From the NCBI RefSeq assembly GCF_003226535.1, contig NZ_QKOB01000008.1, positions 1 through 64,000 of the forward strand: DNA of 64,000 bases, given 5' to 3'. The notes beneath the pieces are model-generated. The model had not been told where the DNA came from. It made no database searches and saw only the letters and a list, made by a program, of their open reading frames with translations. The DNA comes from Meiothermus sp. Pnk-1. GTDB lineage: Bacteria > Deinococcota > Deinococci > Deinococcales > Thermaceae. Shown here piece after piece: positions 15,682 through 26,501 of the stretch (position 1 is the stretch's first letter; each line of letters opens with the position of its first letter). Both the position numbers and the translations under genes were made by a program.

Positions 15682-15853
15682 GAGGCAAGTCCGGTACGCT
15701 TGAAAGGTGAAACCTACACGGCCAGTTTACCCCCGTGACCTAACAGACGTGGAGTGGGCCATACTGGAGCCCTTGATCCCGGCCCCCAAACCCGGGGGCC
15801 GTCCCGCCACGGTACCGAGGCGCGAAATCGTTAGCGCCATTCTCTACGTCCTA

Positions 15854-15874
15854 GGTCACGCGAAGCGTACCTTG
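15854..15874 (+). repeat. 21-nt palindromic insertion, copy 1
   Basis: It contains GTCACGCGAAGCGTACC, an imperfect hairpin (GGT.ACGC-GAA-GCGTACC). It falls where the transposase should read Leu-Arg-Asn and breaks the frame. An almost identical copy lies at 16062. Confidence 0.65.
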
Positions 15875-16061
15875 CAAACGGCATCAAGTGGCGGGCCATG
15901 CCCCACGACCTGCCCCACTGGTCCACGGTCTATCCCTACTTCCGCAAGTGGCAGAAGGAGGGGGTTTGGGAACGGGTAACGCCAGCCCTGGTCCGCCGGG
16001 ACCGGGAGCGAGAAGGGAGGCACGCCTCTCCCAGCGCCCGGGTTATGGACAGCCAGTCGGT

Positions 16062-16082
16062 GGTCACGCGAAGCGTATCTTG
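16062..16082 (+). repeat. 21-nt palindromic insertion, copy 2
   Basis: It contains GTCACGCGAAGCGTATC and differs from copy 1 by one base (T for C). It lies between the Val and Lys codons of the expected SQSVKT motif and adds 20 bases there. Confidence 0.65.
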
Positions 16083-16465
16083 AAGACCAGGGAAAAAGGG
16101 GGCCCCGGGGAAACGCCAGGTAGTGACGGACACTGGGGGTCGCCCTTGGTCCACCCGGCCAACGGGCATGACCGGTGGGGCGGGAAGGTGCTCTTGGAGG
16201 GGCTAGATCCTGTTTACTGGCCAAGGGTGCGGGAGGGGGAGGAGGTGCCGGAGATTCCGCGGGAGAGGGGGTTCAAGCCCTTGCCCAAGCGGTGGGTGGT
16301 GGAGCGGACGTTGGCGGGGTTGGGTAGGAACCGGCGCTTGAGCAAGGACTATGAAGAGCGGCCTGAGGTGAGCGTGGCGTTTTTTCGCCGAGCGAAGCGA
16401 GGGGTGGTCTGGGTCTACCTGGGCATGCTACGCTTGTTGGTGAAAGCGTGTATACTCGGGGCACC

Positions 16466-16672
16466 ATGCCCCGCATGACCATCGAAATTGACGAAGCTCT
16501 GCTGGAAGAGGCCCGCCGGGTGCTAGGGGTACGCACCAAGCGGGAGGCCATCGAGCGGGCCTTGCAGGAACTGGTGCGCCAGCAGCGCCGCCGGGGCATC
16601 CGGGCCCACGCCGGGCGGGTGGAGCTCGAGCTCACCCAGGAAACCCTACGCGCGCTGCGGGAGTCCCGCTAG
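16466..16672 (+). CDS. vapB: VapB-type antitoxin (ribbon-helix-helix-like)
   Basis: The 68-residue product begins [16 protein letters not shown] and continues '[20 protein letters not shown]', the common VapB/DUF2191 pattern. An N-terminal DNA-binding strand-helix-helix is followed by a toxin-binding tail. TATACT at 16451-16456 lies 15 bp before the ATG, so the transcript is near-leaderless, and this -10 lies at the edge of the broken IS. The partner vapC starts one base inside its stop codon. Confidence 0.85.
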
Positions 16673-17094
16673 TGGCCCGCATTTTGGTAGATACCCCGGC
16701 CTGGATTGAGTTTTATCATCCCAAGGGTGCCCGCCAAGTCAAGCAAGCCCTGGGTAACGCCCTGGAGGTACATGAGATCGCGGTTTTAGCGCCGATTACC
16801 GTGGAACTCCTGTCCGGCGCGAAGAGCGAAAAAGACTACGGTCTTCTCGCTACCGACCTGCAGGCCCTGCCCTGACTACCCTTGGGCAACGAAGAGGCGG
16901 GGGTGGCTGGCAAGCTGGCCTTCACACCGGCCCGTTCCGGCCAGCGGGTCCCCACGGTGGACTTGCTGATCGCCGCAGCGGCTTTGGTGCATGGCTGCGA
17001 ACTGTGGCACTTTGGCGATGCCCATTTTGCGACCATCGCGGGCCATAGCCCCCTGCAAGAACACAATCTCAAAAACGCTTTAGATATCCCATAA
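16672..17094 (+). pseudogene. vapC: VapC PIN-domain toxin with an in-frame stop
   Basis: The frame runs 140 codons from the GTG at 16672, which overlaps the vapB TAG. It has one TGA at 16873-16875 (codon 68), and both halves are in the same frame. The PIN acidic residues survive on either side: ILVDTPAWIEF and 'ITVELLSGAKS' before the stop, and 'TVDLLIAAAALVHGC' with 'HFGDAHF' after. A single TGG-to-TGA change would explain it. The toxin (an RNase) is probably inactive unless the stop is read through or the base is an error. Confidence 0.75.
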
Positions 17095-25898: not shown

Positions 25899-26501
25899 CT
25901 TTGTTCCTCCTTGCCAGGCTTTGGCCTGGACGAGGCTACCGTAGCTCCCCTACCTTGCGGAAAGGTTGCACTCTTTGAGGGAGAGATGAAAACCGGAGTT
26001 TACGCGGCCCCCATAACCTGAGGTGTGCTCGAGGGCCTGCGTTTTCTGTAGAGTAACCCCTATGTGTGGGGGGTGGCCAGGTTGTTGCTGTTCCTGGCCC
26101 TGCTTCGGCTTTCATACCTCACCACCGACCTCTACGGGCTTCTCTTTGGGGTTCTCCTGCTCGCAGCCCTGGTGCGATCGTGAAGATGCTCCTGGGCGAG
26201 CGCATTGACCTGGCCCCGAGATCCCCTGGGCCACAGGTGGGTCAGGCGAAGCCTAGCTTGGGGCGCCGTTGCTCTTCCCCTGAAGGAGCTGAGGGGGCTG
26301 GGGTACAGGACGCCTCGAGAGGCTTTGGGGAAATGGAAAGCATCACACGGCCGACAGGGTAGGAGTGTCGAAGTGGATCACGCAAGACGCGGTGGATCAT
26401 CCTTTGGGTAGGGTTGCTGAAGGGTACGCCCTGTCGCCAGACCAGTAGGAAGCCCCCTTGGGTCACGCTGCGCTCGGGTCGAATTGGATTAGACTCCTCT
26501 T
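25899..26501. other. 600-bp stretch without a supported gene
   Basis: No ORF here resembles a known protein. A 39-codon frame at 26064-26183 (GTG start, TAGAGT 15 bp ahead) encodes a single hydrophobic span, LLLFLALLRLSYL and onward, and could be a small membrane peptide or the stump of a lost gene. Bases 26200-26370 read in fragments such as LKELRGLGYRTPREAL, which hints at a decayed transposase or integrase but proves nothing. Confidence 0.3.
26490..26495 (+). promoter_or_regulatory. -10 element of the ygfZ-like gene
   Basis: TAGACT lies 12 bp before the ATG at 26502 and there is no Shine-Dalgarno sequence, so a leaderless transcript is likely. Confidence 0.45.

Follow-up and report, generated by a model that had tools for sequence, protein, structure and literature searches.

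Very small, probably mobile DNA hairpins in insertion sequences of Thermaceae

The window analysed here, a stretch of 64,000 nt from contig C8 of the 3.51 Mb genome of Meiothermus sp. Pnk-1, contains a degenerate IS5-family transposase gene (15707..16460, forward strand), relatives of which match Pfam DUF4096. Within this gene lie two 21-mers, GGTCACGCGAAGCGTACCTTG at 15854-15874 and GGTCACGCGAAGCGTATCTTG at 16062-16082, which in the preliminary description were taken for two independent landings of one active small mobile palindrome. The question raised by this locus is whether short hairpins have indeed been inserted here and, if so, what kind of element they represent. The sequence bears out the positions of the 21-mers and their single mismatch (C15870 versus T16078). 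With up to 3 mismatches, 3 matches were found in the window where none is expected by chance, and chance similarity was therefore ruled out.

Alignment with relatives that carry no inserts gave exactly 20 extra nt at each of the two sites and therefore frameshifts, as had been described. The first insert, GTCACGCGAAGCGTACCTTG, occupies 15855..15874 of the forward strand after G15854 and is followed by C15875, where empty relatives have A. The second, GTCACGCGAAGCGTATCTTG, occupies 16063..16082 of the same strand after G16062 and is followed by A16083; the corresponding site on pTP143 and pTHTHE1601 is also filled, with different stems. Both inserts are absent from IS5 relatives in the same genome (contig C4), in G001, which we take to be Allomeiothermus silvanus DSM 9946, and on Thermus thermophilus plasmids, where the genes are annotated as IS5 transposases. 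Empty relatives thus exist for both sites, and none of the annotated intact relatives carries the 21-mers, which rules out that the hairpins ordinarily belong to the IS. A single duplication within the gene was likewise ruled out, since the flanks differ and each copy has its own empty site. These empty-site comparisons support two independent landings. The third match in the window, GGTCAGGCGAAGCCTAGCTTG at 26240-26260, has both sides of one stem pair altered and retains the hairpin by this compensating change; its element, GTCAGGCGAAGCCTAGCTTG (26241..26260, forward strand), adjoins an IS3 remnant and sits 5′ of a stretch reading LGYRTPREAL, which resembles an IS3 transposase C-terminus. A search for an empty site of this third copy gave none.

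The proposed ACGC-GAA-GCGT hairpin was reproduced by DNA folding at −4.1 kcal/mol for copy 1, the stem of which is lengthened by GGT..ACC, and at −2.8 kcal/mol for copy 2. Against shuffled sequences, these energies correspond to z = −2.0 and −1.4, respectively; because a single copy is thus only weakly unusual, the case for structure rests on the hairpin family described below. The host gene is a pseudogene for several reasons, because besides the hairpins it carries an unrelated 30-nt insertion and lacks its central part. This insertion, a different dispersed repeat of the GGCGTnnTTTCGCCGAGCGAAGCGAGG type at about 16370..16399 of the forward strand, is absent from the IS5 relatives. The GGCGTnnTTTCGCCGAGCGAAGCGAGGGGT repeat of ~30 nt (window 16370-16399; L019-L032; L231, pMESIL01) is present in many copies in this genome and in G001, frequently as tandem units spaced 30 bp apart and interspersed with GAGACGCTTnTTTCG units, and it includes GCGAAGC. 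Directly after the dead transposase follow a small antitoxin-like gene (16448-16672) and, downstream in the region 16448-16875, a PIN-domain-like gene that is interrupted by a stop at about 16873, both named by the look of their sequences.

Thermus genomes contain further exact copies of the 20-mer, mostly within transposases. A gapped search revealed that the interior of the element is a short hairpin of varying stem (CGC, CGCC, CGCCC and others) between constant GTCA and TANSTT. This first gapped pattern gave about 100 matches in 22 of 50 genomes, with backward-read controls at zero or near zero. A generic structure search of the retrieved loci found about 100 sites and the additional stems GCC, GCCC, GCCCC, CGGGC, GGC and GGGGC, so that at least 10 stem sequences on one frame constitute compensatory stem changes; which stem classes were sampled depended in part on the search patterns used. 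The GTCAGCC stem type alone accounts for more than 150 matches in 29 of 50 Thermaceae genomes (backward-read control: 0). The family frame starts with 5′-GTCA and a perfect stem that usually adds 3-5 pairs, turns in a loop of GNA or GNNA, and returns through the complementary arm to end in TAN(CTTG or GTTC)-3′, in total a non-coding element of 20-25 nt. More than 250 matches to the family were obtained in Thermaceae genomes, several of which are drafts, with backward-read controls near zero. The palindrome first described does appear to be a mobile repeat, but the 21-mer represents a single version of a family that is defined by structure and whose stems differ.

The stems are 4-6 bp long including the A-T pair, and 78 of the 109 sites compared have loops of 3 nt. 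The tail letters covary (C..G in 87/109, G..C in 17/109). When the letters of the head were permuted, 0-1 matches were obtained in the window and two plasmids, with a maximum of 4 (GTAC, pTP143), versus 3-8 for GTCA. A perfect 16-nt palindrome pattern gave no matches. The strict first pattern had 0 matches in 61 genomes from other families of the same class. Apart from one chance match (L133), the only matches outside Thermaceae were L121 (HRbin27) and L124 (a Bipolaricaulota MAG); these are probably mis-binned contigs or transferred IS, because the surrounding DNA closely matches Thermus loci. Virus-borne spread was set aside, as the exact family pattern is missing from IMG/VR. From these comparisons it is very probable that the 21-mers are insertions of a mobile hairpin family in Thermaceae.

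For the analysis of the target, 112 filled sites were collected, and their flanks were joined by script and used to search for empty relatives, which yielded 47 distinct filled/empty target pairs in ungapped comparisons. At 45 of the 47 targets, insertion took place at an A, within the logo C-C-T-N-G-[A]-R-G (consensus CCTNG|A-R-G); the empty IS5 or IS3 target context reads CCTTGAGG. In filled sites, the element is followed by C in 18, A in 10, G in 10 and T in 9 pairs; in 79% of the pairs this base is not that of the empty site, whereas flanking bases differ in only 8.7%. The A of the target thus gives way to the element and a further base that is essentially random. Target duplications, for which the preliminary description had proposed a search, were not present at the filled sites. 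The left half of the target, CCTNG, resembles the element's own tail CCTTG, and the tail type (CTTG or GTTC) is associated with the base at target position −4 (P=0.0055); the tail was rejected as a target duplication, since only one position matches above shuffling. In G027 (C78, 16528 and 16552), two GTCAGCCCCGAAGGGGCTACCTT elements stand in direct tandem, as expected if the CCTTG tail of an element can itself serve as a target. A general preference for hairpin loops was discarded despite nested copies and cases in IS200 loops, given that predicted unpairedness is 0.707 at targets and 0.674 at other GAR sites (P=0.24).

Host genes were assigned by homology to known transposases, as assignment by the longest open frame was too noisy in GC-rich DNA. 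Transposase homology (IS3, IS5, IS256, IS630, IS481, IS4-like and IS1634) was detected in the flanks of 87 of the 112 sites versus 1 of 210 random positions, and about seven further sites were recognised by inspection at IS5 or IS200-end sites, so that about 84% lie in IS DNA. Random DNA of 720 kb contained 1 match (0 in 400 kb of G029; 1 in 320 kb of this genome). Among the 8 matches on pTP143, 6 lie outside annotated genes, 1 in a transposase and 1 in cobO, the last probably being a chance match with an atypical loop. Tolerance, instead of targeting, may explain why the sites are so common in IS DNA. Relative to the transposase, 50 copies are in sense and 37 in antisense orientation; since neither orientation nor codon phase is constant, translational bypass elements were set aside.

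Insertions can accumulate, as in one IS3 gene of G035 with about ten inserts within 0.9 kb. Some elements are nested in the loops of others, and some lie within the end hairpin of an IS200-type element, the empty form of which is present in G029. Between the IS5 copies of pTP143 and pTthSNM1-7c, 829 nt contain 9 substitutions (1.1%); the only length differences are a hairpin of this family and another that belongs to a second family, GCTGCTTCCCCGTTAGGGGAACACCTTG. The existence of ~99% identical IS copies with and without hairpins, together with the occurrence of the same kind of element in many related genomes, agrees with the small mobile repeat proposed at the outset; very recent insertions are evident, and from them the repeat may be called active, as far as sequences can tell. 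The second Thermus hairpin family (GCTGCTTCCCC-GNNA-GGGGAACACCTTG) likewise lies between G and A, sometimes within annotated genes (L216 1478; L223 44476 and 46296; L226 43477; L227 13563). In G039, inverted hairpin pairs ~60 nt apart were observed inside IS200-end remnants (C4 34748/34810, C7 75660/75722, C15, C27, C28 and C40; L072, L074, L076 and L077), some with a nested element.

In DNA, GNA and GNNA loops on at least 2 G-C pairs form extraordinarily stable, nuclease-resistant mini-hairpins, and GCGAAGC melts at 78°C (PMC4686876). The loops of the Thermaceae hairpins follow this rule in 90 of 109 cases (65 GNA, 25 GNNA). The rule marks one strand, because the complementary strand would bear TNC loops, and this favours, without proving, a single-stranded DNA stage; the loop preference could instead reflect RNA or selection for stability. 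Taken together, the data are probably best explained by tiny non-coding mobile hairpins that form a structure-defined Thermaceae family with precise ends, a strict target and exchange of the A. That they move by a single-stranded DNA intermediate is a reading towards which we lean slightly.

Several known processes were weighed against this explanation. Template switching by host replication between CCTTG-like microhomologies, combined with palindrome correction, would need no dedicated system and would account for the CCTNG common to target and tail and for stems that are perfect despite their varied sequence; since it leaves the strict A and its exchange unexplained, and the elements are restricted within the class to Thermaceae, it is considered unlikely. 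Similarly, movement of a REP-type element by a RAYT or IS200/IS605 transposase (Y1, HUH), with a 5′-tagged hairpin and a guide-matched cut, is suggested by the 5′ foot and imperfect stem of REP architecture, by the inverted pairs in G039 and by the likeness of target and tail, as though a single guide served both cuts. Y1/HUH transposases act on single-stranded hairpins. However, no Y1_Tnp gene was found in G022 (at least 22 copies), G024 (at least 17), G045 (at least 11) or further genomes that are nearly complete. Where hairpins do occur near Y1 genes, they have been inserted into an IS end and are not flanking repeats, and Y1 chemistry would be expected to leave the target base unchanged; the odds are thus well against a REP-type origin, which we rate as quite doubtful.

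An RNA intermediate with reverse transcription, reportedly suggested in 2008 by Elhai for the spread of cyanobacterial SDRs, could explain the random base at one fixed position as error-prone strand transfer. Against it stand the occurrence of RVT_1 in only 2 of 20 genomes tested, even less often than Y1 genes, and its absence from the window's own genome, the two orientations relative to host genes and the 4-nt loops, which often violate the RNA GNRA rule, and its probability is accordingly put very low. The palindromic shape would also suit excision footprints of a larger transposon, but interiors are essentially 3-9 nt although up to 30 nt were permitted in the search, the longest loops of true copies being about 9 nt; target duplications are absent, and nested copies exist. 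Searches of carrier genomes gave no longer element bounded by such ends, and footprints can be given almost no credence.

Because Y1 and reverse transcriptase genes are inconsistently present and template switching leaves the A unexplained, a trans-acting factor is postulated for the mobile hairpins. Copies would pass through a single-stranded DNA hairpin, the strand of which would be handled by this putative factor; the same factor might recognise the tail-like target (CCTNG resembling CCTTG), and a step prone to error would affect the target A. Neither a Y1 transposase nor a reverse transcriptase resident in the genome would be required. A new minimal type of transposition, in which a system carried by the host or by a plasmid places heat-stable mini-hairpins 5′ of an A, mutates this A and preferentially enters and inactivates IS, is conceivable and at present rather improbable.

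If the interpretation as mobile hairpins is true, these elements would rank with the smallest known units of mobile DNA, and none this small was found described for the host phylum. No earlier description of this hairpin family was found in a search that covered mainly openly accessible literature, and a prior description from Thermus may exist. Thermus thermophilus is a naturally competent, genetically tractable thermophile, and the strict target, the exchanged A and the very recent insertions make the movement of tiny repeats directly testable. The GNA/GNNA rule in bacteria growing near 78°C, the melting point of d(GCGAAGC), would moreover link DNA biophysics to mobility, and the hairpins would account for part of IS death in Thermaceae genomes.

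Among known systems, GTAG and CGTC REPs were defined in a study in which Thermus and Meiothermus are unmentioned (PMC3733652). GTAG REPs and REPINs with their RAYTs are similar in the imperfect hairpin, the dispersal and the occasional inverted pairs; in contrast, the Thermaceae hairpins start with GTCA without a terminal GTAG, have no associated RAYT/Y1 gene and lie within genes, whereas GTAG REPs lie between them. CGTC REPs share the small palindrome, the GTC foot, the A-T first pair and the failure to find a dedicated transposase. They comprise a CGTC tag, an 8-9-bp stem with AT at the first and second pair, a 4-5-nt loop and a CCA tail (PMC3733652), a definition from which the Thermaceae hairpins depart with stems of 4-6 bp including A-T, mostly 3-nt loops and an NSTTG/C tail. 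With respect to the CGTC (or TGTC/CCTC) tag, GTC is constant in the Thermaceae hairpins and the preceding base is that of the target, mostly G. RPEs are also palindromes inside coding sequences (PMC3733652), but according to their description they preserve the reading frame of genes that likely remain functional, while the Thermaceae hairpins usually break the frame of hosts that are mostly dead transposases. As single hairpins of 20-25 nt with no Y1 gene and without both end hairpins, they also differ from IS200/IS605 elements by definition.

The nearest parallel is provided by the cyanobacterial SDRs, the likeness being one of described features rather than of compared consensus sequences. 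SDRs of Nostoc and relatives, reportedly described by Elhai et al. in 2008, are said to be about 21-27 nt long and to lie inside minitransposons. To our knowledge, SDRs are confined to cyanobacteria, a different phylum from that of Thermaceae, and we know of neither replacement of a target A nor concentration in transposase genes among them. SDRs are hairpins with compensatory stem changes, nest in one another and occur in other mobile elements; the Thermaceae hairpins, with their many stems on one frame, share all three features. In GCGATCGC, the target of SDR5, insertion falls after nt 3 and before nt 4, at G|A (PMC4390886), the same junction at which the Thermaceae hairpins are found.
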